Shown: one piece after another, positions 4,389-34,613 of the stretch
How the letters are laid out: each line of letters begins with the position of its first letter
Numbering within the stretch: position 1 is the first letter of the stretch
Source of the DNA: an uncultured Ruminococcus sp.
Lineage (GTDB): Bacteria; Bacillota; Clostridia; UBA1212
Length of the DNA: 41,500 nucleotides
NCBI GenBank assembly: GCA_902782645.1
Contig: CACZNV010000034.1
Coordinates: 1-41,500 of the forward strand
Reading direction: 5' to 3'
The notes under the pieces: generated by a model
What the model saw: the letters and a program-made list of their open reading frames with translations, nothing else
Databases searched by the model: none
Told to the model about the DNA's origin: nothing
Translations under genes and position numbers: made by a program

Positions 4389-6194
4389 TTAGGGTAAATC
4401 GTCTGCTTTGAAATAAAACTTTTTAATCGTACACTCATAATCTTCATTTTCAATGAAAGGGCAATCTCCATTGTAATCAGCAGGATCAAAACGGATTCCA
4501 CCTACATACCCAAACCAATTTGTGTTGGTGCTCATGTCAATTCTATACGTATGGAACTCACCATCCGGCAATGTTTCGAATTCAACCATCCAATCATTAC
4601 GCCATATACTGCTAGCAACACTCGTAAAAAAAATCTGTGCCTTGTTACTCGTCCCTGTTATCTTCATTTCTATAAATATATTTTTAAAATGATTCGCATT
4701 TATACCGTACCCTAATTTAAACAGGTATGGATCCTCATCTGTTATAATAAAGTTTAACTCTCGGTTAATGCTTTTTGCAGATTCCATTTGGTGAACGTTG
4801 TCAAATATTTCACAGAGTTCTGGGTCATATACTGATTTTGAAACATCCTGCCCTGGGAGAGGAATAACATTTACGGTGAACTCAACAGGAGTCATTGATT
4901 GGCATTCAATTTTACGAATTATCATTGGCGGAATAGAAATGCTCTTAAGAACACGATATTGCTCTAAATCGGTTTTAATATTATAAACATATTTGTCATT
5001 CACAATCATGACAACATCATGACATGGATAATCGTCCATCCCGTTTATAAAATCTATTTTGCAAGAGTATACCTCAGGATTTACTATTATTTGTTGATCA
5101 AATTTATCATTATTATGAGTATTAGTCTCATTATCAAGTTTAATCTGATAACTGAGTATAAATTGATTATTCAGCTCTTTTTTTGAATACGTCAAAGATT
5201 TCAGCTTATACAAAATGTGGGGTAACACATCAAGTTCGACACTGTATCCATGTTCCAATGCTTTCTTTAATTTGCATCTATATTCGTCATCCTGACAAAG
5301 AACCGATGGGAAACGGCCACTTTTAGTCTGATACTTCATGTTTAACAGTCTGATTTTCTCTAAATCATCTGCAACTTTTCCAAACTTATCTATCAATTCA
5401 TGTAGCAACGGCTCAAGATTGTACTCATTTTCAATATAAAGCAATCTATCGTGTAAGTGTTTTTTATGCTTTATGAAATCATGTATAGTCTTATAGGATA
5501 AACTACATTCGGATGAATTTAGTTTATCCAGGAGCATTTGGTATATCTGAATTCCATAACAAATATTGGGATTATTATACAATTCTCCTCTAGGTGAGCT
5601 GTACCACTCGCACTCTTTTTCACAGCTGATATAATGCGATAGGTTTTTAATGAAAAGATCCGGATGGAAATCTCCTTGAAAAGAAACTTTTGGTTTAATT
5701 GTTGTAAATGTTTTATGCAAAGCATCTATACTGCCACCTTGCATATAATGATTCCTTATTTCGTACGCAGCTTTTACTAGTTCATTTGCATCAATATCAA
5801 CTATAACTTGTCCTCTCATTATATCAAAGAAAATGCTTTTAAACTTTTTTTTGTCCTTATCGTATTCATATATGATTAGTGGATGAACAAAATGATTGCT
5901 AAAATATCTTTTCGATGCTGATATGTAAAACTCATCCACCCAAAGTATTACAAATTTATCAAACATAATTTCTTGTTCTAATAATTCTTGCATATTCCTA
6001 ATGTCACCTATTTTATATTGTGCTATAGTATCAAACAGACCATAAAAATCTACATTGTCGACATAGTCAACAATGTCACCATACATCATAATATTGACAA
6101 ATCTCTCAAGAATCCATCCCTCTTGGCTAGACCGACTGAGGAACGCCAATAAAGGATTAATTTGCATGTAAGTACTCTTATTCGTATGACTCAT
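4389..6194 (-). CDS. BtrH_N-like protein with C-terminal beta-sandwich domain, end of RiPP operon
   Basis: The 601-aa protein is the last gene of the proposed cluster. Residues ~80-150 read W-V-D-E-F-Y-I ... H-F-V-H-P-L-I-I-Y-E-Y-D-x-x-x-x-x-F ... I-D-A-N-E-L-V-K-A-A, the pattern of BtrH_N-type papain-like folds. In butirosin biosynthesis BtrH moves an acyl group from an ACP to its acceptor. The His of H-F-V-H (101-104) is present, but no Cys occurs before residue 191, so the usual papain-like nucleophile seems missing or replaced. Residues ~300-460 are unassigned. Residues ~465-601 look like a carbohydrate-binding type beta-sandwich (G-E-F-H-T-Y-R-I-D-M ... W-x-G-Y-V-G-G-I-R-F-D-P). An ACP gene two genes upstream supports an acyl-transfer role, which is inference. 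Confidence 0.55.
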   Translation of the reverse strand: MSHTNKSTYMQINPLLAFLSRSSQEGWILERFVNIMMYGDIVDYVDNVDFYGLFDTIAQYKIGDIRNMQELLEQEIMFDKFVILWVDEFYISASKRYFSNHFVHPLIIYEYDKDKKKFKSIFFDIMRGQVIVDIDANELVKAAYEIRNHYMQGGSIDALHKTFTTIKPKVSFQGDFHPDLFIKNLSHYISCEKECEWYSSPRGELYNNPNICYGIQIYQMLLDKLNSSECSLSYKTIHDFIKHKKHLHDRLLYIENEYNLEPLLHELIDKFGKVADDLEKIRLLNMKYQTKSGRFPSVLCQDDEYRCKLKKALEHGYSVELDVLPHILYKLKSLTYSKKELNNQFILSYQIKLDNETNTHNNDKFDQQIIVNPEVYSCKIDFINGMDDYPCHDVVMIVNDKYVYNIKTDLEQYRVLKSISIPPMIIRKIECQSMTPVEFTVNVIPLPGQDVSKSVYDPELCEIFDNVHQMESAKSINRELNFIITDEDPYLFKLGYGINANHFKNIFIEMKITGTSNKAQIFFTSVASSIWRNDWMVEFETLPDGEFHTYRIDMSTNTNWFGYVGGIRFDPADYNGDCPFIENEDYECTIKKFYFKADDLP

Positions 6195-6353
6195 AGACGA
6201 TTTTACACCTATTAAAGATGTTTAACCTCCCTCTTCCTTATGATTACTTGACGTAGAGATTGACTGCTATCTTAGAGCTAACTTTTTATACATTCTAAAG
6301 TCCACTCGAAGACCATTGTTTTGATGATCTGGATAATTCGTCTTAGCATATTC

Positions 6354-7784
6354 TTACCCCAAAATATTTTTGTTAAGCCACTCAAGGAAAGAATCATTTT
6401 TGCCAGTCCTGCCTTGGATAATTTCAGAAATATGAGTTGTTCTCTTTAGATATTCTATCATTTGTTCTTCAACACTTCTTCCAATCACTCGACAAGAGAC
6501 CGAGAACAACATAAGAGTGTTCCCATCTACTACCATTGTTCCTATCAATCCATAATCATTAATACTATCTCGGTAGTATACAGAATAGGTTTGACCTATA
6601 CGATTTGAAAGCTCCCTTATAGTTAATCGAGATCCATTTGTCCTTTGGTTTGTCCTCATAGACAACTCTGATATCCTACTTAGTTCAAAATCCCGTGCAA
6701 TATGGATATCTACCAGACCAGCAGAATCCTTTCCATAATGCTTCATGCTTTGCATATTTCTATAGTTTGAAACCCTAATGTCTGCAAGAGCTTGCTTCTT
6801 GGGATTAAGTTTAAAGCACGATAACTGTTCGTAAATGGTGTACGAATCAAACAAAATTGACTGAACATCTGGAACTAAAGATGTCATCTCATTTATCTCA
6901 CACTCTGAATCATCAATAAACACAATACTATCCAATGAAAGATTTAAAATGGTGGAGATTTCCTGAATATTCTCTGCTTTATTCCTATAATTCGCTTTAA
7001 TAACAGAAAAAAGCTCTTCTCGTAATATCATTCCATTATGGTGGGCAAGGACATCGCGAATGCTTTTTTCGCTATTTTTTGTGCAAAGACATAGAATTGT
7101 TCCGCTATTGTACATCTGTAGAATAAACTTCTGAAAAGTTGAGTATTTTTTCGATATCATTATTCCTTCTATCCCGTTCTCATTTAAAACTCCATCCCAC
7201 AGCACTCCATCACAGTCAAGTACTATGCACTTGGGTGTTCTACAGTAAGTTACGCAGTACTGACAATAGATTTCCCTAACTATCTCCTCGATAGTTCTTT
7301 TTGAATATGGTGAACTCCAGCGATACCAGCCTTTATCATTGTAAGCGTTTTTAATCCCGATGCCAGCTATAATTCTCTTAAAATCTAGAAAAGAGTCATC
7401 TGCATCAATAATATCTGCCAGAAATAGATTCAGCTTATCCACTATACCATTGCAGGGAAGAATGTTTCCAAATATAAACCTATCCTTTCGGTTATAATCA
7501 TCAAAGCCTAGCCACATTATTTTTCCTTTACTCTTCTTTCTTACGCTGTCATATATTTCTTTGCACTTATCCATAATAATGTCAAACTGTTCCAGACTAG
7601 GATTGCCAGACAATTCTTCAAGGTTAATATGCAACAGCACCAGTTCACTCTCTACAGTGTCTACCATGCTGAGATTGTTTAGATATATAAACGTGAATTT
7701 AGATTTGTCTAAAAAATAGAATCTAAACGCATTTTTTAGATACGGTTCAAAATAGATATTGCTTATAACTGAAATACTTAACAC
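6354..7784 (-). CDS. FkbH-like HAD-family enzyme (glyceryl/acyl-ACP formation)
   Basis: The product of 476 aa has the FkbH core: L-D-C-D-G-V-L-W-D-G, with the two HAD aspartates at about residues 190 and 192, and F-I-D-D-S-E-C-E-I-N-E-M downstream. A C-terminal GNAT-like segment includes S-C-R-V-I-G-R-S-V-E. Known FkbH proteins dephosphorylate 1,3-bisphosphoglycerate and load the glyceryl group on an ACP phosphopantetheine. An ACP gene lies directly upstream, which fits. The frame can start at TTG 7793 (overlapping the ACP stop), but GGAGG at 7795-7799 is correctly spaced for the GTG at 7784, which I prefer. About 160 bases without a convincing gene separate it from the BtrH-like gene. Confidence 0.85.
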   Translation of the reverse strand: MLSISVISNIYFEPYLKNAFRFYFLDKSKFTFIYLNNLSMVDTVESELVLLHINLEELSGNPSLEQFDIIMDKCKEIYDSVRKKSKGKIMWLGFDDYNRKDRFIFGNILPCNGIVDKLNLFLADIIDADDSFLDFKRIIAGIGIKNAYNDKGWYRWSSPYSKRTIEEIVREIYCQYCVTYCRTPKCIVLDCDGVLWDGVLNENGIEGIMISKKYSTFQKFILQMYNSGTILCLCTKNSEKSIRDVLAHHNGMILREELFSVIKANYRNKAENIQEISTILNLSLDSIVFIDDSECEINEMTSLVPDVQSILFDSYTIYEQLSCFKLNPKKQALADIRVSNYRNMQSMKHYGKDSAGLVDIHIARDFELSRISELSMRTNQRTNGSRLTIRELSNRIGQTYSVYYRDSINDYGLIGTMVVDGNTLMLFSVSCRVIGRSVEEQMIEYLKRTTHISEIIQGRTGKNDSFLEWLNKNILG

Positions 7785-7789
7785 CGCAA

Positions 7790-8038
7790 TCAATCCTCCA
7801 GTATTTCGCAGATGACTTGAATTATTTTTGATACTGATTCAAGCTCTAGAATCGACAACCTGTCATCCGGAAACTCAATATTGAAAGTCTTTTCTAGTTC
7901 AACAATTATCGCAATAAACTCAATTGAATCTACTCCTAACTCTATCAAACTATCTTCGTAATTTGATTCAGTTATAACTGCATTTTCGATGCAAGAGTTT
8001 ATTATTTCAACTACATTGATTATTGATGGTTTTTCCAT
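7790..8038 (-). CDS. Acyl/peptidyl carrier protein
   Basis: The 82-aa acidic protein carries the phosphopantetheine attachment motif E-L-G-V-D-S-I-E-F with Ser38, followed by helix II-like I-V-E-L-E-K-T-F-N-I-E-F-P-D. Size and motif placement are typical of stand-alone ACP/PCPs. GGGAGG just upstream of its ATG lies inside the previous gene. Its stop falls beside the FkbH-like start. Standing next to FkbH, it is the likely carrier of a three-carbon glyceryl unit or a related acyl group. It is not a fatty acid synthase ACP by context, since no fab genes are nearby. Confidence 0.92.
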   Translation of the reverse strand: MEKPSIINVVEIINSCIENAVITESNYEDSLIELGVDSIEFIAIIVELEKTFNIEFPDDRLSILELESVSKIIQVICEILED

Positions 8039-8040
8039 TG

Positions 8041-8940
8041 TCAGCCTCCCATGAAGATTTGTTTGTTTAGTTGTATCTTTCTTCTATCCCTTTCCGTCAA
8101 ATACCCTTCTATGTAATCATTTAAATCATTTGATTCAAGTCTTGTCCTAAAGTCTACTGTCCATTCTTTTCGTTCTTTTTTGCAGAGGCCGTAAGCATTA
8201 AGCAGTTTTTCTCCTTCTGGCGTGCGAAATGCTTCCAAATACTCCAATAAAAAAGAATCGCCAAATATTTGTTTTGTATAAAAAAGAACATAAAAAACAT
8301 AAGGTATAATTTCGTATTCCTTACTGATTCTAAGCAAGTTTTGCACTGAAATATCCTCTATGTTGTTTTTTAGCAAGAAATAGATATCTTTAAACATTTC
8401 AGATCTAATTGTATTTCTTGTTGCAAGAAGAAATATACTGTTCATGTCCTTGTAATGGTGTAACACCAATTGCACCATCGCTTTTAAAGGCGGCAATGTT
8501 TTAACTTTTGTACCATATATGTCCATCTCTATAGCATCAGCCAAGAACTGCTCCATATTTATTTTTTTCCCTTCGTATTCTCCCCAAAAAATATCAAAAT
8601 TGACATCTATCACAATGGATTGATTCCCGATAGTTCTAACATATGGAATGATCTGGTGCGAAGAAGACAAACATAGAATTCGCTCCAGCCGATAATCCTT
8701 CATTGAACTAGGTCTACTATGAAAACCCATTTGTAGCAAATGATTCTCAAGGTCGCCTAAAAACGCTTTTGGCACAAGCAGATCAATATCATTGTATCTT
8801 CTTTCACTCTCATTGCCATAGCATTGTTTGGATAATGCAGCTCCCTTTACAAGAGAATATGGCATGTTCCTAATCTTTGAAAAAAAATCCAAATGATTCA
8901 GAAATGCAAAGACGGCTCCGTTACGTACTTCTTCTAACAC
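8041..8940 (-). CDS. NTP_transf_5-type nucleotidyltransferase, RiPP tailoring
   Basis: The 299-aa protein begins with GTG at 8940, preceded by GGAGG inside the previous gene. It shows L-V-K-G-A-A-L-S near residue 30 and R-R-Y-N-D-I-D-L-L-V at about 47-56, a nucleotidyltransferase-fold signature (the D-x-D metal site) of the uncharacterised family often called NTP_transf_5. Members are frequent in RiPP clusters. In the pseudomycoidin lasso-peptide pathway such a protein was reported to act on a phosphorylated Ser to give a sugar-type modification after a HprK-like kinase. Here too the kinase gene is directly upstream (5-nt gap). The specific reaction in this cluster is unknown. Confidence 0.8.
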   Translation of the reverse strand: MLEEVRNGAVFAFLNHLDFFSKIRNMPYSLVKGAALSKQCYGNESERRYNDIDLLVPKAFLGDLENHLLQMGFHSRPSSMKDYRLERILCLSSSHQIIPYVRTIGNQSIVIDVNFDIFWGEYEGKKINMEQFLADAIEMDIYGTKVKTLPPLKAMVQLVLHHYKDMNSIFLLATRNTIRSEMFKDIYFLLKNNIEDISVQNLLRISKEYEIIPYVFYVLFYTKQIFGDSFLLEYLEAFRTPEGEKLLNAYGLCKKERKEWTVDFRTRLESNDLNDYIEGYLTERDRRKIQLNKQIFMGG

Positions 8941-8944
8941 TTTT

Positions 8945-9811
8945 CTAACCTCCTAATACTAAAGATTCTATGTCGTTTTTAACTTTTTTTAATGTTTCAA
9001 AATTGCTTGGTATATGCAGGAAGGAAACTGGAATATCCGAAAACAGAGATTCCATATCGATCCTTTTTATAATACTGTAAGGTAAAACACCAATCCCAAC
9101 TATGTTGTGATAGAGCATGCCTTTCTTTATTGCAGGGAGTTTGATTGGCTCTACCCATGGTTTGTTGTCGCTTGTTCTTCTAAGGAAAATAATACTTTCA
9201 ATCCTAGAAGGCTTTATTTTTGTATCATCAATACTATAATATCGTTTTCCGATAATATTCCGTTCCTTATTTACGTCAAATATATTAAGTTCAGAGACTG
9301 ACTGGTCCGTCAGTTTCATCAAATTATGCGCCCTAAACGGACGAGTTTTGGATCTTATCAACAGAGTATCATCGGAATACAATTTGAGTTGGTCTCCAGC
9401 TAAAAGATATGAAAGCGTGGTTTTTCCAACTCCCTTATCTCCTGAAATGCATATCACAGTTTTTTCCCGTAATAATGAACATGCATGAAATAAGCACCAC
9501 CCCTTACTCGCAAAGAATAAAGAGAATGGTATGTTAAAGAGTGTAGAAAAGAAAGACTCAAAAGAAGTTGCAAGACATCTTATCCTGTTGTCTTTCCCAT
9601 CTACATAATAGATTGCATAATCTCCTAATTTTATGATAAATGTATTATTATCTAGTTCTTCAACTGATATACCCTGGCAAGTGACTTTTCCTATTTCAAC
9701 ATGAAGATTCATAAAAAATGATTCGTTCGTATCCGTAGAAGAAAACTCACTTAAAAGCGGCATTTTTATATTTGAATATACAATTATTCCGTATATCTTA
9801 TAAATCCACAT
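8945..9811 (-). CDS. HPr-kinase-like ATPase/kinase, likely peptide kinase
   Basis: The 288-aa protein has a Walker A loop G-D-K-G-V-G-K-T-T at residues 124-132 after a hydrophobic strand, and a D-D pair at 147-148 (L-Y-S-D-D-T-L-L-I). This is the HPr-kinase/phosphorylase-like layout, without the N-terminal HprK domain. Such short HprK homologues are known in lasso-peptide clusters, where they phosphorylate the C-terminal Ser of the precursor. The precursor in this operon ends in Thr-Ser, so the same reaction is plausible. No clear Shine-Dalgarno stands before the ATG at 9811, so translational coupling to the ABC gene 17 nt upstream is likely. It is AT-rich, unlike that gene. Confidence 0.8.
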   Translation of the reverse strand: MWIYKIYGIIVYSNIKMPLLSEFSSTDTNESFFMNLHVEIGKVTCQGISVEELDNNTFIIKLGDYAIYYVDGKDNRIRCLATSFESFFSTLFNIPFSLFFASKGWCLFHACSLLREKTVICISGDKGVGKTTLSYLLAGDQLKLYSDDTLLIRSKTRPFRAHNLMKLTDQSVSELNIFDVNKERNIIGKRYYSIDDTKIKPSRIESIIFLRRTSDNKPWVEPIKLPAIKKGMLYHNIVGIGVLPYSIIKRIDMESLFSDIPVSFLHIPSNFETLKKVKNDIESLVLGG

Positions 9812-9828
9812 ATTCTTGACTGAAACGT

Positions 9829-11625
9829 TTATTGCACGTAGTGCTTCGCCTGTGCATGATACATTTTTGAATAGTTGTCGCAGCTCGCAAGCAGCTCGTC
9901 ATGTGAGCCGACTGCCTCCACGGTGTGGTTGTGGAGAAAAATAACGCTGTCTGCGTACTTGGCGACAGAAAGCCTGTGAGAGATGTAGAAAATCGTTTTT
10001 CCTTTGAGCGTCCTGTTGAATGTCTGTATCAGTTCGTCTTCGGCAAATGCATCCAGCGCCGACGAAGGCTCGTCAAGGATTACTATCGGCTGATCCTTAA
10101 ACAACACCCTGGCAAGGGCAAGTTTCTGAAGTTCGCCGCCGGAAAGGAGCACGCCGTTCTCGTCAAATATCCTGCCAAGCTTTGTGTCAATTCCGTTAGG
10201 CAGTCCGTCGATTTTTTCCTTCAGACCTGCATTGCACAAAGCATCATATATTTTGGCACGTACCTCCTCAGTGTCCCTGTAGTCATTCATCGCAACGTTT
10301 TCTGCAATAGACAGCGCGTAATACTTGTAGTCCTGAAAGACAATGCCTATCCGGTTTCTGTAGCTTCTGTAGTCAATTGACCGCAGGTCCACACCGTTGT
10401 ACATAATGCTGCCGTCGTTTACGTCATAGAGGCGGCAGATAAGCTTGCAAAGTGTGGTTTTTCCTTCGCCGTTTTCACCTACAATAACGTAAAATTTATT
10501 CTTCTCGATTTCAAGATTCACATTGCTCAGGACGTAGTTTTCACTGCCCGGATACTTGAAGCAGGCCTTGTCGAGCCTGTAGATATTAGCGGTTTCCGGA
10601 ATCTCATCGGCATTGCAGCCCTTGCCGTCAACCGCAATAGTATTCTCAGTCTCCATAAGCTCCCTGAAGGCTTCGATGTAAATCGAATTCTCGGCAAGGG
10701 TAATTATGTTGCCCGCAATTCCCGTCACCTGGGAGGAGAAAGTCGTCAGGGCAGTCAGAACCATTGTAAAGTCCGCCACGCTGAGGCCGAAAAAGACCAT
10801 GCGTATCGCAAGGAAAACGTAGTACAAGCCAAGTTCAATCGTGCCTATCGCATGCCTGATCGATCCGTTGGCTGTCGTTTTGTTGAGCAGGCGCCTTCCC
10901 AGCTTCTGAGACTTGTCAACGGTCTTTTTATACTTGGCGATAACCCAGTCCGAGATGGAATACATGCGCATGTCATTGGCGTAGTTTTCATCCACAAGCA
11001 TGGTCATGTAGTACGAAATCTCCCGGTTCACTTCCGTCAGTTCAAGCCTGTTCCTGTACTGTGCGCGCTTGTCAAGGCAAATCGTAATGATTTTCGTCAC
11101 CGTCAGCACCGCCATGACAACATAAACCCACTTGGAAACGATTGACAGGACCACGCCAAGGGACACAATCGAAACACCCGACGAAATAGCCGCAAAAGTC
11201 GCATCAAGAAATCCTGTCGCCACATTACTCTGCACCGCCTGCGTCGCCAATTCTTTGGTCTTAAGCGTTTTCGGGGAAAACAAAACCGCATAGTCAAGAG
11301 TCACAATTTTTGCCTGTATATCGAACAAAAGCGCATTTCTGTACAAATCGCCAATGATTCCAATCTTCCTGTTGAGCAGCAGCACAGCCTGCCCTTTCAC
11401 GTAGGAGGCCCCCACGATAATCAGTATTATCATCAGCGCCCCGTCCCAGCTCTTACCCAGCAGCTGCTCAATCAGCAGCTTTGAAAACAGGGCATTGAGC
11501 GCCGGCATAACACCATTTAGTAAAGCAATTAAAAACCTGCAAATAAAAAACATTTTGCTGAATTTCCATGCTTTTTTTATCATAAAAAGCTGATTACTCA
11601 TCAGTCCTTTAAATTTTAGTTTCAT
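9829..11625 (-). CDS. ABC exporter, fused permease-ATPase half-transporter
   Basis: In the 598-aa protein the first ~320 residues form a type I exporter membrane domain. The ATPase follows: Walker A G-E-N-G-E-G-K-T-T (383-391), Q-loop F-Q-D (430-432), signature L-S-G-G-E (494-498), Walker B V-I-L-D-E-P (515-520) and switch His550. There is no N-terminal C39 peptidase domain, so leader removal must be done elsewhere. Placed directly after the precursor, it is the likely peptide exporter. Its GC content and codon choice are visibly higher than those of its neighbours, and it holds three ATTGGCG words (10975, 11245, 11349), whereas the other cluster genes hold none. It therefore looks host-like or separately recruited. 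Confidence 0.92.
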   Translation of the reverse strand: MKLKFKGLMSNQLFMIKKAWKFSKMFFICRFLIALLNGVMPALNALFSKLLIEQLLGKSWDGALMIILIIVGASYVKGQAVLLLNRKIGIIGDLYRNALLFDIQAKIVTLDYAVLFSPKTLKTKELATQAVQSNVATGFLDATFAAISSGVSIVSLGVVLSIVSKWVYVVMAVLTVTKIITICLDKRAQYRNRLELTEVNREISYYMTMLVDENYANDMRMYSISDWVIAKYKKTVDKSQKLGRRLLNKTTANGSIRHAIGTIELGLYYVFLAIRMVFFGLSVADFTMVLTALTTFSSQVTGIAGNIITLAENSIYIEAFRELMETENTIAVDGKGCNADEIPETANIYRLDKACFKYPGSENYVLSNVNLEIEKNKFYVIVGENGEGKTTLCKLICRLYDVNDGSIMYNGVDLRSIDYRSYRNRIGIVFQDYKYYALSIAENVAMNDYRDTEEVRAKIYDALCNAGLKEKIDGLPNGIDTKLGRIFDENGVLLSGGELQKLALARVLFKDQPIVILDEPSSALDAFAEDELIQTFNRTLKGKTIFYISHRLSVAKYADSVIFLHNHTVEAVGSHDELLASCDNYSKMYHAQAKHYVQ

Positions 11626-11664
11626 AAGGTAATCGCTCCCATCATAACTGCTTCAGTGTTGCAA

Positions 11665-11683
11665 GGCAGGATTTTGTCCTGCC
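11665..11683 (-). promoter_or_regulatory. mRNA hairpin between precursor and exporter genes
   Basis: GGCAGGA (11665-11671) and TCCTGCC (11677-11683) form a perfect 7-bp stem with a 5-nt loop, 15 nt after the precursor stop on the minus strand. No T-run follows, so it is not a full terminator. A stem here would stabilise the short precursor transcript or reduce read-through into the exporter, an arrangement common in RiPP operons. Confidence 0.6.
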
Positions 11684-11697
11684 CCGCTTTTCAAGAA

Positions 11698-11832
11698 TTA
11701 GCTTGTTGCTATGCAATTGTTGCAACCAACATTAATCTCCGGGCATCCAGCGTTTGGACAGACTTGTGGGCATACGCAATCACATCCTAGGCCAAGACCA
11801 AGTGGCTCTAATCCTGCTTGAATAATTTCCAT
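11698..11832 (-). CDS. RiPP precursor peptide, 44 aa, Cys-rich
   Basis: A short frame runs from the ATG at 11832 to the TAA at 11698-11700, with AAAGGAG eight bases upstream (complement of 11841-11847). The first 16 residues (M-E-I-I-Q-A-G-L-E-P-L-G-L-G-L-G) form a short leader without Cys. The remaining 28 contain seven Cys at 17, 19, 21, 25, 30, 37 and 40, four Gly or Pro-rich turns, and a C-terminal Ala-Thr-Ser. It lies between a radical SAM/SPASM gene and an ABC exporter, the standard place for a precursor. I expect Cys-based crosslinks (thioethers or disulfides). Resemblance to the Clo7bot-type or ranthipeptide-type Cys-rich substrates is possible but cannot be shown here. Confidence 0.85.
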   Translation of the reverse strand: MEIIQAGLEPLGLGLGCDCVCPQVCPNAGCPEINVGCNNCIATS

Positions 11833-11877
11833 TTTTTCTTCTCCTTTCACTATATTTGTTGAAATACGAATGTCAAG

Positions 11878-13200
11878 TCAATAATACTTCTTTATCATCT
11901 CCTCTATTTCGCATTTCACAACATCTAAATCACAGTCCATTTCTCCATATGCCATTCTAGCTTTAGGACATCTTTTTCCGAAACACAAAGGAAGAGCACT
12001 ACATTTTTTGCACTTGTTTGAAGACAAATAATCCGAATATACCCATTTGGAGTATAACGATTCGTTTATTTCAACGGTACCATCGTCTTCTATCCTTCCC
12101 AGATTATTTGTTTCATTGTCAAGATCAAACGAGCACTTTAACAAATATCCCTGATCGTCAAACACAAAGTAATTAGGTTTTGAAGCATAACAAACCCTGC
12201 TACACGGGAGGCTACGGCTAGTGACATTATTGCAAGATAATGCATATTCTTTAAGCATTCCCACAATTTCAACATTAATGAATAGTGATTCAATCTCACC
12301 TAAAAGTTGAGGAGTTTCACTATTTCCCTGATCCTTGATAGTCTCAAAGTATATGCCGATACGTTTGTCGTTTAGCTTTTCTGAAACATATTTATAAAAT
12401 TCCTGCAAACTATCCGCAACATCAAAATTAAAGTTAGTTCGAAGTGCTACCTTAAAGAGAGCAGTAGTTGTAACCATGTAACTTAGATTATTGATAATGG
12501 TCTGCCACGTAGGCTGCCCTCCCACAAGAGGCCTTGTTTTGTCATGTGTATAGCTCATTCCATCTACGGATATTTGATAAAATGAGCAATTCAGTGAAAC
12601 TAACTTGTCAAAATGATTAGGAGTTAACAGATAACCATTGGTTGACATTCCAGATTCCATATGTATGCCGGGAAAATCGGTATCTAGCATCGACTTTAGT
12701 TTTTCTAAAAACCATATTATATTATTATACTCTACGAGAGGTTCTCCACCAAAAAAAGTAACTCTGACATTTGAATAACCTCTCAGCAGCAATTGGTTTC
12801 GTACGAATGCGATGACGGAATCATAAGTCTCCTTTTCCATTTTACGATCCAAGTGAGGCTGACCACAGTACACACATCTAAAATTGCATTGCCGCGTAAC
12901 TATTAACATTATGTCGAGTGTGCTGTTTCGAATAACCCCTTCCTCATATAAGCACCTAACTAATAAATCCTCATCCGCATCAACATCTACAAATAACTTT
13001 TTATTGTAGAGAACAGATATAATATCATTTTTCTCATCAAATTCGATTTCTGGCTGAGACAATAATTGATTCAATCGATCAATATAGGTAATTTCCCGAA
13101 AAGCAATTATTGCCCCACTAAGAGAGCTATAAGCTATAACTGATCCATCGTCCTTGTTGATAAAGAAAGCATATCTGCTTCGCTTAAGTTTTTTACTCAT
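11878..13200 (-). CDS. Radical SAM/SPASM peptide maturase
   Basis: The 440-aa enzyme has an N-terminal ~90-residue region resembling a RiPP recognition element, then the radical SAM cluster motif C-N-F-R-C-V-Y-C (Cys105, 109, 112). The F-F-G-G-E-P-L SAM-binding motif follows. The C-terminal ~100 residues hold a SPASM-type set: C-x-x-x-C ... G-Y-L-L-K-C, then C-K-K-C-x5-C-x4-C and further Cys, enough for auxiliary Fe-S clusters. Such enzymes install thioether or C-C crosslinks in precursor peptides. I place the start at ATG 13200, where AAAGAGG precedes it and the conserved N-terminus begins. A second in-frame ATG at 13296 would add 32 residues. The precursor gene follows 45 nt downstream. Confidence 0.92.
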   Translation of the reverse strand: MSKKLKRSRYAFFINKDDGSVIAYSSLSGAIIAFREITYIDRLNQLLSQPEIEFDEKNDIISVLYNKKLFVDVDADEDLLVRCLYEEGVIRNSTLDIMLIVTRQCNFRCVYCGQPHLDRKMEKETYDSVIAFVRNQLLLRGYSNVRVTFFGGEPLVEYNNIIWFLEKLKSMLDTDFPGIHMESGMSTNGYLLTPNHFDKLVSLNCSFYQISVDGMSYTHDKTRPLVGGQPTWQTIINNLSYMVTTTALFKVALRTNFNFDVADSLQEFYKYVSEKLNDKRIGIYFETIKDQGNSETPQLLGEIESLFINVEIVGMLKEYALSCNNVTSRSLPCSRVCYASKPNYFVFDDQGYLLKCSFDLDNETNNLGRIEDDGTVEINESLYSKWVYSDYLSSNKCKKCSALPLCFGKRCPKARMAYGEMDCDLDVVKCEIEEMIKKYY

Positions 13201-13715
13201 AATAAGCCTCTTTCTAAATTCGTACTCGATTTTAATCAAAACGGAACAATCTGTTGAATAAATGTGTATAAAAAGGAGTCTTTTACGCACATTCATTCAA
13301 ACCATCTCTTTCAGGAAACAGGTATTCAATCAAAATAAGCCATATGCTTACAATGAGAGAATAAACTCAAGTAGTGAAACCCTCGTGTGCTAATCACAGC
13401 CTACATGAAATGAGCCGAGAAAGATGTTGTTAGATACACCTCATACCATTACATGCTCATTTCTCATTTGAACAACACACCCCGTCCTTAATACAACTCA
13501 ACTGTAATAGCAGAATAATCATGGCATCGAATTGTTCAATGTCTTAAATATACTCTGTTTACACGCCTTGCTATAATCTACTACATTTCGAGAAAGAATC
13601 TAATACAGAAACAACTTAAACCCAATGACGACGCTTAAAAGTGAAAAACATTGAACTATATGCTTCTGTATTAATTGCCAGCGTTAGTGGCAAGCATCCC
13701 CTTCTGTCATGAACC
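13201..13715 (-). other. Long leader region of the RiPP operon, no gene recognised
   Basis: About 500 bases lie between the putative transcription start near 13708 and the radical SAM start. All frames read there give only peptides of about 10 codons, none with a convincing ribosome binding site. One small stem is visible (TTGCCA at 13675-13680 and its partner TGGCAA at 13688-13693). No known riboswitch pattern was recognised. Confidence 0.5.
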
Positions 13716-13745
13716 ATTATACAGCTGTTCAATATCTGTTGTCAA
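13716..13745 (-). promoter_or_regulatory. Consensus promoter for the RiPP operon
   Basis: On the minus strand, TTGACA (complement of 13740-13745) and TATAAT (complement of 13716-13721) are both perfect and separated by 18 bp. It points at the radical SAM gene, and no other gene lies between. The surrounding 300 bases are strongly AT-rich. Confidence 0.8.
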
Positions 13746-14022: not shown

Positions 14023-14808
14023 TTAACCCAGGGCTACGTCCAGGGCCATCATAAGTGTAAAGCCTAATGCGAACATCACAACGCCTGAGTGCGCATGCTC
14101 GCCCGAAGACATCTCCGGAATCAGTTCCTCCACAACGACATACATCATTGCGCCTGCGGCAAATGAAAGCAGGTAAGGCATTGCCGGCACCACAAGGCCC
14201 GCAAAAACCACCGTTAGAGCTGCCGCAACCGGTTCAACAACGCCTGAAAGCACACCGTCAAGGAACGCCCGGCCCTTGGTCTTGCCCTCTGCGTGGAGGG
14301 GCATGGAGATGATGGCACCCTCGGGAAAGTTTTGAATTGCGATACCGATTGCAAGCGCCAATGCACCGCTCATGGTTATATTGGCGGAGTGGGAGAGAAC
14401 GCCCGCATAAACAACACCCACAGCCATGCCCTCAGGGATGTTGTGCAGCGTGACCGCAAGCACCATCATTGTTGTCCTTTTGACTTTGCTTCTCGGACCC
14501 TCGGCCTTGTCGGCAAACATGTGCAGGTGAGGCACCACATTGTCAAGCAGCAGCAGGAAAAGTATCCCGAGCCAGAAGCCAATGAAGGCGGGGGCAAAGG
14601 CCCATTTTTCCATTGGCGATTCCTCCTGCTCTATCGCCGGTATGATCAGGCTCCAGATGGATGCAGCGACCATCACCCCCGCCGCAAAACCCGTCAAGGC
14701 CTTTTGAACTTTTTCGTTTAGTTTTTTTCTCATGAAGAACACGCAGGCCGAACCCAGCGCTGTTCCCGCAAACGGAATCCCTATTCCCAATATAACTTCC
14801 GGCAGCAT
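14023..14808 (-). CDS. ZIP-family divalent metal transporter (first paralog)
   Basis: The 261-aa membrane protein has about eight hydrophobic segments. It carries the two metal-pathway helices of ZIP proteins, H-N-I-P-E-G-M and N-F-P-E-G-A with the following S-M-P-L. The ATG at 14808 is preceded by AGGAGGTG at ideal spacing; the longer frame upstream crosses the TA terminator and is not coding. The family imports zinc, iron or manganese down a gradient. A near-identical paralog lies 1.3 kb away on the same strand, and the two share downstream sequence (ACTGAGCGTTTTTTA). A palindrome 24 bp before its start (14832-14849) suggests metal-responsive repression. Confidence 0.92.
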   Translation of the reverse strand: MLPEVILGIGIPFAGTALGSACVFFMRKKLNEKVQKALTGFAAGVMVAASIWSLIIPAIEQEESPMEKWAFAPAFIGFWLGILFLLLLDNVVPHLHMFADKAEGPRSKVKRTTMMVLAVTLHNIPEGMAVGVVYAGVLSHSANITMSGALALAIGIAIQNFPEGAIISMPLHAEGKTKGRAFLDGVLSGVVEPVAAALTVVFAGLVVPAMPYLLSFAAGAMMYVVVEELIPEMSSGEHAHSGVVMFALGFTLMMALDVALG

Positions 14809-14831
14809 AAGGCACCTCCTCAGCAGGCTTT

Positions 14832-14877
14832 TGTTAGCCTGCGCTAACATACTATATCGGAAACAGCCGCTTGTCAA
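14832..14877 (-). promoter_or_regulatory. Operator palindrome and promoter of the first ZIP gene
   Basis: TGTTAGC-CTGC-GCTAACA (14832-14849) is a perfect 7+7 palindrome between the gene start and a minus-strand promoter-like pair. That pair is TTGACA (complement of 14872-14877) and TATAGT (complement of 14851-14856), with short 15-bp spacing; an alternative -10 overlaps the palindrome. The T-T-A-G-x6-C-T-A-A core resembles DtxR/MntR-type sites, which would fit metal control. Confidence 0.6.
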
Positions 14878-14960
14878 TCGCCAAATGCCTTTTTTAAGGG
14901 AAAAAGTTAAAAAATCGGTAACTTGTTTGCTGCCGCCAATGAAATCCGCAACTTGCTTAT

Positions 14961-14997
14961 AATCAAAAATGATTTCGCATCTTGACGAAATCATTTT
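14961..14997 (-). terminator. Rho-independent terminator of the toxin-antitoxin operon
   Basis: A perfect 12-bp stem (AAAATGATTTCG at 14966-14977 with its complement at 14986-14997), 8-nt loop, followed on the minus strand by TTTTTGATT. It lies 10 nt after the antitoxin stop. Confidence 0.85.
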
Positions 14998-15006
14998 CAA
15001 AGTTCT

Positions 15007-16068: not shown

Positions 16069-16860
16069 TTACCCTAAAGCGACGTCTAAGGCCATCATCA
16101 GTGTAAACCCAAAGGCGAACATCAGCACGCCTACATTGGAGTGTTCGCCCGCGGACATTTCAGGTATAAGCTCCTCGACAACCGCGTAGAGCATTGCGCC
16201 TGCGGCAAAAGCCAGAAGGTAAGGCATTGCCGGGACCGCCAGCCAGGCGAAAAGGACAGTGAAGAGTGCGGCCACAGGTTCGACGGCGCCGGAAAGGAAA
16301 CCGTCGAAGAAGGCCCTGCCCTTGCTCTTGCCCTCTGCGTGGAGTGGCATGGAGATGATGGCGCCCTCGGGGAAGTTCTGGAGGGCCATACCGATTGAGA
16401 GTGCCAGTGCGGCGCCAAAGGATATGCCGGTGCCGGAGACCAGGCCTGCGTAGACGACGCCAATGGTCATGCCCTCAGGGATGTTGTGGATCGTCACGGC
16501 GAGGAGAAGCATTGTCTCTCGCTTGGCGCGGCTTTTGAGACCCTCGGCCTCTTCGGCGAAGCGGTGGAGGTGAGGGATGATCTTGTCGAGAACGAGAAGG
16601 AAAATAATACCGACCCAGAAGCCTATAAATGCGGGGATAAATGAAAGTTTGCCCTTAAAATAGGAGGGAACCATGTTTTCGCTCATGGCGGGGATCAAAA
16701 GACTCCAGATTGAGGCGGCAACCATGACGCCTGCGGCAAATCCGGTGAGCGCCCGCTGTACGGAGCGGCTCAGATCTCTTTTCATTAAGAAAACGCATGC
16801 GGAACCGAGGGTGGTTCCAACGAGAGGGATGGCAATTCCGAGCAGAACATTAAGCCACAT
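16069..16860 (-). CDS. ZIP-family divalent metal transporter (second paralog)
   Basis: The 263-aa protein is a close paralog of the ZIP protein at 14023-14808, sharing long blocks such as T-G-F-A-A-G-V-M-V-A-A-S-I-W-S-L and H-N-I-P-E-G-M with N-F-P-E-G-A-I-I-S-M-P-L-H-A-E-G-K. The start is ATG 16860, preceded by AGGAG eight bases upstream; the frame upstream is the promoter region. Differences concentrate in loops, e.g. the segment after the second helix. It is transcribed from its own TTGACA promoter with a different operator-like repeat, so the paralogs are probably expressed under different conditions. Confidence 0.92.
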   Translation of the reverse strand: MWLNVLLGIAIPLVGTTLGSACVFLMKRDLSRSVQRALTGFAAGVMVAASIWSLLIPAMSENMVPSYFKGKLSFIPAFIGFWVGIIFLLVLDKIIPHLHRFAEEAEGLKSRAKRETMLLLAVTIHNIPEGMTIGVVYAGLVSGTGISFGAALALSIGMALQNFPEGAIISMPLHAEGKSKGRAFFDGFLSGAVEPVAALFTVLFAWLAVPAMPYLLAFAAGAMLYAVVEELIPEMSAGEHSNVGVLMFAFGFTLMMALDVALG

Positions 16861-16901
16861 ATGGAGTCTCCTGTTTGGGTTTTGTATTGGCGGCAAGGGG
16901 T

Positions 16902-16947
16902 AAAACTTGCCCTTCAAGTTTTTACTATTTGAAAGGTTTTTTGTCAA
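16902..16947 (-). promoter_or_regulatory. Promoter and inverted repeat of the second ZIP gene
   Basis: TTGACA (complement of 16942-16947), 17 bp, TAAAAA (complement of 16919-16924). AAAACTTG-CCCTT-CAAGTTTT (16902-16922) is a perfect 8-bp inverted repeat overlapping the -10, an operator candidate. It is unrelated to the palindrome of the first ZIP gene. Confidence 0.65.
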
Positions 16948-24141: not shown

Positions 24142-24807
24142 CTACTCGGTAAACCCGCCGTACCTCTCAATCAGGTACGCAAGGTAGTCCTCGGTCAGTA
24201 TGCCCTTCCCCAAAGCCACCTTGAGGTACTGTCCGTTGTAGGCGTTGAACATTATCTCCGTGACGCCAATTACTTCCATCTCTTCAGCAGTGAAGAGTCC
24301 GTAGGTTGCGATGTCTTCATTCTTTGATGCCTGATTGTACTTGAGGTCATCATCATAGTCAAAGATGTTGAAGAGGCCTGTAATACCGCCGGGCATGGAA
24401 AGCATACCCTCAGTGAAATAGTTCAGGGTCGAGTATGTTACAGGCGAGTAGACAGCCATCGTCTCGTAGGTAAGGAACGCACTGTCGAGAGTGTAAACTC
24501 CTTCAATTCCGTAGAAACGGTGCCCCACAAAGTCTGCATAGTTCTCTGCGTCGATGTAAACATACTTGTTGAGATTCAAATCAAAGAATCCGTGCTCACT
24601 GATGACCTTCACTCGCTTGCCGTTGCTGAAATCGAGGTTGATAACCTCACACTGCTGTTCTTCCTCAACATCGTTGAAGAGAACGAATGAAGTCTCAACT
24701 TCTCCTGTTTCGTGGTTGAAAACAAGGAGTTCGTCCCCGGAAACCACATATTGGACCTGCTTCTCAGTGCCGTCAGCCATGAGGATGAGCGTGTCGGGGG
24801 CAAGGCA
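24142..24807 (-). other. Hint autoprocessing domain of the giant pseudopilin
   Basis: This part encodes Cys1733 to the C-terminus: a Hint N-terminal block (C-L-A-P-D-T ... V-V-S-G-D-E-L-L-V-F-N), an E-H-G histidine block and about 120 further residues. No C-terminal His-Asn of true inteins is seen, so cleavage or ester transfer at Cys1733, rather than splicing, is expected. Residues before it end K-S-C after a Ser-rich linker. Confidence 0.75.
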
Positions 24808-27800
24808 GCTTTTAGAAGAAGAATTAATAGTAACGTCACCGTCAGGCATTTTGAAATAGTATGTTCCCGCAGCAGCTGAAGTTGTCGTCGAAGTGCATGC
24901 TTCATTGCTGTAGAGAGTTACACTTGAACTGCTCTTTTTAACAGTGAATGTCTTTGATTCGGATTCTGAATAAGACAGCACAACCTTAACGACACTATTG
25001 TATGGAACAGAGCCGCCACTGTTCACAGCTGTTCCATTCACAGTTACTGCTGTAGTACTGTTGCTTGTTATAATCGTTATCTTGTATGATTTCACAGTCC
25101 ACTGTGCGTACAAAGTTACATCTCCGGTCGGGGTATATGCTGCGCCGCCGTTGCCGATTTTGGTTCCGCCGCTTGCTGCAGTATACCAGCCGTTAAATGT
25201 ATAACCTGTTCGCGTTGGCGTCGGCAAAGTAACACTTCCGTTAGTACCTGCAGTCAAAGCAGACGGATTGGAAGCTCCGTTGCCGTCAAATGATACCTTA
25301 TATGCAGTCCATTGTGCATAGAGAGTGATGTTTTCGGCAGGAGTATATGATGTGCCGGCGTTTCCGACTTTTGTTCCGCCGCTCGCCGCAGTATACCAGC
25401 CATTGAACGAATGTCCCGCCCAGGTTGCATCCGGCAAAGTAATAGGCGTTTCACCATCATACGTCGCACTACTTGTTCCGCAGGATCCGCCGTTAGCATT
25501 AAATGTGACCGGTATATTTGTCGACCACTGCGCGTAGAGAGTGACGTTTGCAGTTGGAGTATAGTTAGCTCCCGAGGTGCCAACCTTCTCGCCGCCGCTT
25601 GCAGCCGTAAACCAACCTTCGAATGTGGGCTGAGATCCCGGAGTTGCGGTAGGGAGTATAATCGCAGTGCCCTCGTATGTAGCGGCCTCGATATTGCACG
25701 TTCCCCCGTTTGTCATATCAAACGTGACAGTGTATTTGGGAGACCAGTGGGCTGTCAATGTGATGTTTCTTTCAGGCACCGTGTAGCTGTCGCCGCCCCT
25801 TCCGACTTTTGTCTCACCGTCATACCAGCCTTCCAACCATTGCGTTGTTTGCGTTGAAGCAGGCAAAGTAATCGTGTTGCCTGAATCGCTCTTTATTGAG
25901 GATGAAGATGTACCGCCGTTTGCATCGAACGAAACTATGTACGGCTCCTTCCAGTGAGCATACAAGGTTTCAGAAGCAGATGGCTTATACCCATCAGTTC
26001 TCTTTGTTCCACCGGTTGCTGCAGTATACCATCCGTCAAATAAATAACCCGGCCTCGTAGGAGTCGGCAGTGAGACGGTGGTGGCTGATGAAGTGGTGTA
26101 CCCTACAGACTGTCCGCACTTACCGCCGTTGGGATCAAACGTAATCGTATATTTAATAGACGGCGAAAATGAAGTGGTTGGCTTTGTTTCGGTTGACGGC
26201 TTCGTATATGTTCCATTATATAATCCACAGGAAACAACATACTTTTCATCACTTGTCACCTGTTTACCGCTGTGGCCCGTAAACTTGTAATCGTATATTC
26301 TATACGAACATGCAAACGTTCTACCGCTCATGGCAGAGCTAACCCCGGAACTACCCGCAGGAGAATTAGTAACATAGAATAGAGACGTTTTCGATGAATC
26401 GATATTCAAATTTACCTTTTTTGTGCCCCCTGGAGAATTAGAACATCCAGTTCTTACCATCGACAAAGTCAATATTCTGCCGTCGTTAAGGGTAATTGTT
26501 ACTGTGGTCGCTGTGTTATAATTCGTAGAACCGCCCAGCAGGTCTCCCGAAGGGCTTACCGAAACGATTTTGGCAACAAAATTCTTTTTGCTGGTTGAAT
26601 TACTGCCGTCCAATACAACTGTCGGATTACCGTCTTTATCGAAGTCCGTAATCGTAAGACCGTCAAATATATCGAACCAATAGTATCTGTCTCCGCTGCC
26701 GTTTATTTTCACACCTGTTGTGTTTACCGCAGTATCCACGGTTATCTCCGCATCTTTCCATGCGCGGTCCGGAGTTAACACTTCAACAGGGACAGTAACA
26801 GTATATGATGTTTTACCTATAGGTGAACCGTTTAAGCCAAAAACAGTTGCATTCGATACATTGATTACGATGCCGGTAGAGCCGGAGTTTTCGAATGTAA
26901 TAGTATTTCCATTTATTGTTGTGCCTTCGCAAGAAAGAGAAACACTCTCCGAATCTCCCGAATACCTGCCGAAACGAATGTACTCATTGACATTAAAATC
27001 ATAGGAAGATCCCAAAGGAAACTGTATTCTTACAGTTCCGTTGTCGTTCCAGCAATGCGTTTCATCATCAGGTAGCGTAGTCGGCAAACCTTCAATTTTG
27101 CATACAGGCACATACAAACCGTTACTGCTTGAGCTGTACATATAACTTGAATCTTTAAGTTCGACTGATCCGGAATCTGCAGACAAAGAATAAACCTGAC
27201 CATCGCCAATCCCGGTAGATATAGTGCCCAATGTATAACCGTGATTCTCCCGATTATCCGTAATCGTCGCTAAAGCACCGTTTAAATACAGTACACCCAT
27301 ATTTACATATGATTTGCCATTGTAAGAGTGTACATATCCATTTTGTTTGAGTGCATGGTTGGCTATCGTGCTTGCTACTTTTGAGCTGTCAATTGCCTCT
27401 GCATCAGCAGAACAGATCCAGTTGTATTGATTAAAATAACCGTCTATTATCAATCTCGGATTGGATTCGCTCTCCTCGGTTCCGACTAAAACACCAAAGC
27501 CTTCAACATCATTTCCAACCTCAAACTCATCTTTTGAAAGATATTGGATAGTGGTTACATCCTCCAAAGTTATAGTGTAGTCACTAGAACTCTTGATATG
27601 TACATTTGTGAGCGATCCTCTGTCGCAAACTGTGTTTTTTATCGTGACGTTGCCGGAATTTACAAGAATATTATTTCTTGCCCCTTTTATGTAACAGTTT
27701 GATATGGTACTGTCGCCTGAAATGGCAACGGCCGAGTACTGATAAGCATAATATTTTTTCTCTCCGTTCGTTTCAACCAAGTTTCCGCTTTCAGTAACAT

Positions 27801-30003: not shown

Positions 30004-30049
30004 TGTGGTTTCCTCCGGCAAGTAATAGTCTTAAAATTTTTTCCCGATC

Positions 30050-31993: not shown

Positions 31994-32338
31994 AGTAAAC
32001 CTCCCATAAAGCACTCTCATTTCTCATTGTTGTTTTATAATTGCCGCCAAGGCTTTTTTCATATGCTCCGCCGCAATTTTCATAAACAAATCAAAGGAAG
32101 TAGCTGATGCTTATTCAGTTCGGCGATTAATGTTTTTAATGCGCCTGTCGGTGATAAAGACGTCCGCCCCGTTATTTAGGACGAACCTGTTCCATAAGAC
32201 AAAAATGCCATGTTAACGAATTATAACGGGTGTTAGGTAACAAATAAGCCACAAAATAAAAATAAACCTTCTTTATCGTAAATAAAAATAAAGTTTCTAC
32301 CCTTCAAAAGCCTTTTTTTAGTTTTTCCCCTTCAAAAA
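31994..32338 (-). promoter_or_regulatory. Structured ~340-nt leader and possible -10 before the pseudopilin genes
   Basis: On the minus strand TATAAT (complement of 32220-32225) stands without a good -35. Downstream are a CGTCC/GGACG stem and a GGCG-ATTAA/TTAAT-CGCC stem (about 32120-32190). I compared it with the c-di-GMP riboswitch consensus sequences and saw no match. No gene is present. Confidence 0.4.
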
Positions 32339-34555: not shown

Positions 34556-34613
34556 CACTTTGTACCTCCTGTCGTTATGATTTTAAGTTTCAAAACCATT
34601 TTACCGATTATGC

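Follow-up and report, generated by a model that had tools for sequence, protein, structure and literature searches.

A Ruminococcus gene row that pairs a radical SAM/Cys-rich peptide module with an HprK-NTP5-ACP-FkbH module

The subject of this study is a row of eight minus-strand genes (positions 13200-4389, Table 1) in a 41,500-nucleotide stretch of DNA from an uncultured Ruminococcus sp. (contig CACZNV010000034.1 of assembly GCA_902782645.1), hereafter the window. The row codes for a radical S-adenosylmethionine (SAM) enzyme with a SPASM domain, a 44-residue peptide with seven cysteines, an ATP-binding cassette (ABC) exporter, an HprK-like kinase, an NTP_transf_5 protein (NTP5), an acyl carrier protein (ACP), an FkbH-type protein and a BtrH_N-like protein. 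All eight are present in the order given by a first-pass annotation made from the sequence alone. We refer to the first three genes as module A and to the others as module B. As argued below, the row probably specifies a ribosomally synthesized and post-translationally modified peptide (RiPP).

Table 1. Features of the gene row, with positions in the window and the evidence for each assignment
Feature	Positions	Strand	Evidence or remark
Sigma-70-type promoter, TTGACA-18-TATAAT	13716..13745	-	12/12 match; presumed operon start
Radical SAM/SPASM peptide maturase, 440 aa	11878..13200	-	PF04055, TIGR04085, CNFRCVYC motif
Precursor peptide, 44 aa	11698..11832	-	Ribosome-binding site, position, related peptides in L067 and L161
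ABC exporter, 598 aa, fused transmembrane and ATPase domains	9829..11625	-	PF00005 1.1e-28
HprK-like kinase, 288 aa	8945..9811	-	HprK_rel_B 4.8e-4, AlphaFold2 (AF2) model fold
NTP5, nucleotidyltransferase-fold protein, 299 aa	8041..8940	-	PF14907 1.5e-20
Free-standing ACP, 82 aa	7790..8038	-	PF00550 5.7e-10, DSI phosphopantetheine site
FkbH-type protein (HAD-IIIC phosphatase and C-terminal transferase)	6354..7793	-	TIGR01686 157 bits
BtrH_N/CcbD/AziU3-fold protein, 601 aa, last gene of the row	4389..6194	-	PF14399 partial, AF2 model

The radical SAM gene most likely starts at position 13200, where an ATG follows AGAGG, and not at 13296, up to which the frame is open. Its product matches PF04055 (E 5.2e-17) and the SPASM model TIGR04085 (39 bits, cutoff 27), with the CNFRCVYC motif at residues 105-112. 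By score this enzyme appears closest to the CefB, TIGR04463, Clo7bot and PapB maturases, yet it is probably no equivalog of any of them, as all cutoffs are missed (156/600, 151/525, 129/600 and 95/340 bits, respectively). The peptide reads MEIIQAGLEPLGLGLGCDCVCPQVCPNAGCPEINVGCNNCIATS, with GTGAAAGGAG upstream of its open reading frame (ORF). It starts with MEIIQ, carries GCDCVC as a GCxCxC motif and ends in IATS, so that its last residue is a serine. All seven cysteines (positions 17, 19, 21, 25, 30, 37 and 40) fall in the C-terminal 28 residues. The exporter contains no C39 peptidase domain.

We looked for relatives of the radical SAM enzyme among 391 sampled genomes of the class and 249 genomes of the order around the best match. 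The closest homologues in these samples come from G167 (39% identity, locus L067) and G553 (38%, locus L161). Both loci keep the small ORF beside the homologous gene: between radical SAM and ABC they code for Cys-rich MEI/MDI peptides. L067 contains MDIIRDEKNNGISIMASGAGCGCGCGCGCGCGTKA and MEIVRNSCFN...GCGCGC at this position and a third peptide, MEILRDERS..., beyond the ABC gene; L161 contains MDILRENSKQ...GCGCGC and MDVLREGNQN...GCGCGC. An M[DE][IV][ILV] start and a CxCxC core are common to the window peptide and these relatives, and none of them matched a model in NCBIfam or Pfam. The five peptides of L067 and L161 have A, N, E, N and T as last residues; none ends in serine. The row provides a new family of radical SAM enzyme and Cys-rich peptide for study. 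L067 and L161 contain no HprK, NTP5, ACP, FkbH or BtrH-like protein. Genomes of the same genus gave no FkbH or radical SAM match at the thresholds used.

G553 encodes a second, RumMC-like radical SAM enzyme (L161, 3480-5054; 493 bits, cutoff 720) downstream of its Cys-rich peptide and ABC genes. Three more genomes of the class carry a free-standing ACP gene directly adjoining a CefB/TIGR04463-like radical SAM gene (L070, 9943-10257; L072, 1348-1629; L073, 9617-9874). These loci also contain ABC genes, an S8-like protein in two of the three, and no FkbH. They possibly belong to a broader class of peptides made with a radical SAM enzyme and an ACP.

Along the row, gaps of about 45 nt (radical SAM to peptide), about 72 nt (peptide to ABC) and 17 nt (ABC to HprK) are followed by gaps of 4 nt (HprK to NTP5) and 2 nt (NTP5 to ACP), a 4-nt overlap of ACP with FkbH, and 159 nt between FkbH and the BtrH-like gene. 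The tight spacing that the first-pass annotation ascribed to most of the last six genes is real from ABC to FkbH, which overlap or lie 2-17 nt apart, but because of the 159-nt gap the BtrH-like gene is not tightly coupled. Likewise, the promoter called perfect does match at 12 of 12 positions with an 18-nt spacer (13745-13716), but it is only suggestive because the window contains three perfect occurrences of TTGACA-N15-19-TATAAT and because an untranslated leader of about 500 nt (13201-13715), with no convincing small ORF, separates this one from the radical SAM start. An Rfam search of the window, aimed at a riboswitch in the long leader, returned nothing at the gathering threshold.

The G+C content of third codon positions (GC3) is 0.29-0.34 for the radical SAM and peptide genes and for HprK through the BtrH-like gene, compared with 0.60 for the ABC gene and 0.49-0.75 for other tested genes of the window. 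The AT-rich genes look acquired. Low GC3 is common to modules A and B, as expected of one acquired unit. Judged by composition, the ABC gene may have a separate origin or may have been replaced. We rejected the idea that it was acquired together with module B, because its best matches among the compared loci are the module-A exporters of L067 (35%, 5e-116) and L161 (34%, 1e-111).

Sequence alone gives the HprK-like kinase only a weak match (HprK_rel_B, E 4.8e-4), but its predicted fold agrees with the HprK/PEPCK superfamily: the AF2 model (predicted local distance difference test, pLDDT, 70) matches structures of HprK and PEPCK. The protein contains a Walker A motif (GDKGVGKT), and His109, Gly129 and Lys130 are invariant in an alignment with 16 homologues. 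NTP5 carries the catalytic motif KG(A)...DID, which is retained in 28 of 29 homologues; a sequence search against the PDB identified no relative. The row has all three marks of lasso-type C-terminal tailoring by HprK and NTP5: an HprK-fold kinase, a PF14907 protein and a precursor ending in serine. Members of the FkbH family, for example OzmB, convert 1,3-bisphosphoglycerate to glyceryl-S-ACP. The window FkbH passes the TIGR01686 cutoff (157 versus 146.65 bits) and contains DCDGVLW at residue 193 and SCRVIGR at 433.

To see how widely these genes occur together, contigs from 84,980 species genomes were scanned with an FkbH alignment, which gave 79 loci, and hidden Markov models were then run on all ORFs of these loci. 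NTP5 occurs in 19 of the 28 loci with FkbH close to that of the window versus 3 of the 51 distant ones (Fisher p 7.5e-9), and HprK in 14 versus 2 (p 2.5e-6); the close and distant groups were divided after the ranking was known, and the neighbor counts are lower bounds because many contigs are short. The distant loci have glycan, polyketide and other settings; two of the three exceptions with NTP5 (L118 and L120) also contain HprK and an ABC pair. Module-B neighbors lie practically always on the FkbH strand, often with NTP5, ACP and FkbH contiguous. The most constant partner of ACP-FkbH is NTP5 and not the BtrH-like protein, a point absent from the first-pass annotation. Hosts of module B include Clostridia, Bacteroidales, Anaerolineaceae, Paenibacillus silagei, Paenibacillus cymbidii and a Margulisbacterium. 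NTP5 of the window type is present in 3 of the 391 genomes of the class, near FkbH in all three. The row is more than a chance arrangement, as its gene families and their order turn up again in many genomes. One contig (C13 of G018; L045/L085) carries two divergent NTP5-FkbH sets, the second with an in-frame stop in NTP5 and a short FkbH.

The surroundings of module B point to peptides of several classes. On sequence grounds, locus L118 of P. cymbidii is a lasso cluster: beside NTP5 (1e-33), HPr_kinase_C, ACP and FkbH (266 bits), it codes for a lasso cyclase-like Asn synthetase (NF033535, 196 bits), PqqD (1.8e-15), a B2-type Transglut_core3 protein and a lasso-like precursor with a C-terminal serine (MKYTKPEATKVGNIMEITH/GSGSQIIEYIIDPDTGYVYYETYS). 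Two more loci are lasso-like, one with PqqD, B2, a GATase_7 protein, a radical SAM enzyme and the lasso-like precursor MYCKPQLIEYGNLFDTTHAAGAGSFCDVSGSMYNNYSG (L077), the other with a lasso cyclase-like protein (L100). YcaO, a radical SAM enzyme, an S24 peptidase and a YxxP-type precursor accompany module B in L091 (G013). S24 and radical SAM proteins do so in L085 (G018), L093 and L111, with PqqD in L085 and L093. None of the lasso machinery (Asn synthetase-like cyclase, PqqD-type B1, transglutaminase-like B2) is found among the genes of the window row. We rejected the idea that module-B precursors generally end in serine, as only some do. In other genomes the ACP, FkbH, NTP5 and HprK genes occur in the absence of the peptide family of the window, and other RiPP precursors and enzymes accompany them. 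Module B is therefore a portable tailoring module and not peculiar to the window peptide, as its presence in lasso, YcaO plus radical SAM, and S24/PqqD plus radical SAM clusters shows.

These observations bear on whether the two modules act together. The row might instead hold two neighboring pathways, a module A operon and a downstream ACP-FkbH operon that modifies a glycan or lipid and does not act on the peptide. In its favor, L067 and L161 have module A by itself, the ABC gene where the modules meet resembles the host in composition, and the BtrH-like protein ends in a carbohydrate-binding-like domain. Nevertheless we regard this explanation as unlikely, because only 17 nt and no above-chance terminator lie between the modules, A and B are alike in base composition with the exception of ABC, and in unrelated phyla module B sits beside RiPP enzymes and precursors, including those of lasso clusters.

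We favor the view, with a probability of roughly 0.6, that the row is a RiPP cluster built from two modules, the likely product of which is a crosslinked peptide whose terminus is phosphate-linked and possibly also glycosylated and glyceroylated. Gene content and order, the recurrence of both modules, the family assignments and the catalytic motifs give the gene module good support; the chemistry we infer. The first-pass proposal, in which a Cys-rich precursor, radical SAM crosslinking and a carrier-protein acyl branch make up a RiPP cluster, is supported. The SPASM enzyme would bind the M-E-I-I leader and draw on several of the peptide's seven cysteines to form thioether-type crosslinks. FkbH would convert 1,3-bisphosphoglycerate to glyceryl-S-ACP, the reaction established for its family. 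After crosslinking, the HprK-like kinase may phosphorylate Ser44, as paeninodin and pseudomycoidin suggest. Phosphorylation at this site was already part of the first-pass annotation and is to be expected because the window peptide ends in serine, because the five module-A peptides from loci without HprK do not, and because the HprK-like kinase PsmK phosphorylates the C-terminal serine of pseudomycoidin (PMC9266682), which serves as the best precedent. NTP5 might then add a sugar or nucleotide to the serine phosphate, by analogy with PsmN, an annotated nucleotidyltransferase required for the attachment of one or two hexoses to the phosphoserine of pseudomycoidin (PMC9266682). In the weakest step of this scheme, the glyceryl group could pass to the peptide-linked sugar or phosphate, or directly to the peptide. 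The protein with the CcbD-like fold might assist or catalyze this transfer, and its C-terminal domain may hold the sugar. The ABC exporter would secrete the product.

A transient function of the same groups is a further thought. The kinase and nucleotidyltransferase could serve self-protection or maturation control by placing a temporary phosphate/sugar tag, which the C3 branch completes, so that the secreted peptide would be crosslinked only. Immunity has indeed been proposed as a role of C-terminal phosphorylation in lasso peptides (PMC7533575). With no dedicated de-tagging enzyme apparent in the cluster, and with FkbH and ACP presumably a costly means for a temporary tag, this explanation seems rather improbable.

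Which protein moves the acyl group is a question on which the evidence divides. The BtrH_N label finds weak backing in the sequence, where the match to PF14399 is partial and below the Pfam cutoff (19.5 versus 29.7 bits), but the AF2 model (mean pLDDT 64) matches AziU3 (E 7e-8) and CcbD (1.7e-4). CcbD uses a Cys-His-Glu triad to condense an amino acid, bound to a carrier protein, with an amino sugar (PMC12945683). In alignments of 4 and 12 sequences of the window subgroup, His104 and Glu320 are invariant and no cysteine is conserved. The C-terminal domain (residues ~465-585) is common to many proteins of about 1000 residues in genomes of the order. We considered the protein as a leader peptidase because the ABC exporter is without a C39 domain; the subgroup without Cys disfavors this role. 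Two same-genus genomes carry the BtrH-like gene (53% and 43%) in other clusters. One of them is a RiPP-like cluster (G006, L048, 1290-13255) with ACP, adenylation-domain protein, radical SAM, S8 protease and ABC genes, a 54-residue Cys-containing peptide (..GACRSGACSCACYG..) and a divergent pair of AMP-ligase and BtrH-like genes, the latter 53% identical to the window protein.

The first-pass claim that the BtrH-like protein transfers the acyl group is thus weakened by the missing Cys nucleophile, by the 159-nt distance from FkbH and by its absence from seven module-B loci (L077, L090, L093, L096, L100, L111 and L118). An alternative is that ACP-FkbH serves NTP5, the commonest neighbor and often contiguous with them: NTP5 or the C-terminal transferase domain of FkbH would put the glyceryl group on the phosphopeptide, and the BtrH-like gene would have an accessory role, in binding, immunity or carrier docking, or would be a relic. 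L076, L084 and L092, on the other hand, have 3-24 nt between FkbH and the BtrH-like gene, and in other loci the distance is within ~1 kb; the BtrH-like fold is common to carrier-protein-dependent enzymes, and we know of no acyltransfer activity in PF14907. We hold this alternative to be tentative, though a serious competitor.

Returning to the two-module RiPP pathway, several further findings count against it, as do the missing cysteine, the loci without a BtrH-like gene and the limits on the neighbor counts. Modules A and B are joined only in the window among the loci found, so that the combination was seen once. The ABC gene differs in base composition from its neighbors, and the row therefore came together in at least two steps. 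The cluster has no gene for a leader peptidase, and other candidate precursors of module B end in ..ACPY, ..DEII, ..ADFG, ..SRD or ..YSG. Finally, among the FkbH proteins scored, that of the window diverges most (157 bits versus 201-266), and it shows a gap within a loop that three relatives retain; both make its substrate less certain.

Beyond the window, HprK-NTP5-ACP-FkbH, with or without the BtrH-like protein, could be a class-independent RiPP cassette that attaches an ACP-delivered C3 acid (glyceryl) via a phosphate or phosphosugar to several peptide classes. We rate this generalization slightly below even odds. If true, a widespread route would feed a glycolytic intermediate, via ACP, into RiPPs. 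Moving between lasso, YcaO and radical SAM backbones across several phyla, such a cassette would serve as a reusable tool for modifying end groups. It would also offer a concrete handle on the job of the nucleotidyltransferase in phosphorylated RiPPs, still a question for pseudomycoidin (PMC9266682). The parts are of known kinds; their combination and portability look new. In agreement with the first-pass annotation, the open-access literature searched contained no description of the eight-gene set or of the HprK-NTP5-ACP-FkbH cassette, an absence that is weak evidence. RiPP tailoring with carrier-protein-bound acyl groups has rarely been described, as in lipolanthine/goadvionin-type hybrids. 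To our knowledge no such acyl-tailored RiPP uses FkbH chemistry.

Elsewhere in the window, two genes for ZIP-family zinc transporters (14023-15000 and 16069-16947) with host-like composition lie upstream of the cluster. A very large protein with an N_methyl signal and Flg_new (Listeria-Bacteroides) repeats (24142-32020) and a second N_methyl protein (32420-34558) adjoin a Cthe_2159 carbohydrate-binding protein.

Among known systems, pseudomycoidin and paeninodin (PsmK/PadeK, PsmN) provide the best precedent, by analogy, for the kinase/nucleotidyltransferase pair: an HprK-like kinase gene stands beside a nucleotidyltransferase gene in a RiPP operon, and the substrate ends in serine (PMC9266682). 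Kinases and nucleotidyltransferases are also common in rumen lasso clusters (PMC7533575). In contrast to these systems, the backbone in the window is a radical SAM-modified Cys-rich peptide, the row has neither lasso cyclase nor B proteins, and ACP, FkbH and the BtrH-like protein are added. Against TIGR04352 (HprK-related kinase A, cutoff 200), the model for HPr-rel-A systems, the HprK of relatives (L046) scores 48 bits and the window kinase 16, both under the cutoff. The CefB, TIGR04463, Clo7bot, geopeptide and PapB-type SPASM enzymes are the best-scoring maturase families and likewise adjoin a small Cys-rich precursor, but the window enzyme falls far under every curated cutoff and its precursor matches no model. 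FkbH systems that load glyceryl-ACP (tetronates, methoxymalonyl-ACP) share the HAD-IIIC domain, the SCRxxGR motif and an adjacent free-standing ACP with DSI; the window differs in having no polyketide genes, in its partners (NTP5, HprK and RiPP enzymes) and in a shortened, conserved-looking loop. The predicted fold of the BtrH-like protein is that of CcbD/LmbD (lincosamides), AziU3 (azinomycin) and BtrH (butirosin), from which the window subgroup departs by the absence of a catalytic Cys and by its extra C-terminal carbohydrate-binding-like domain.

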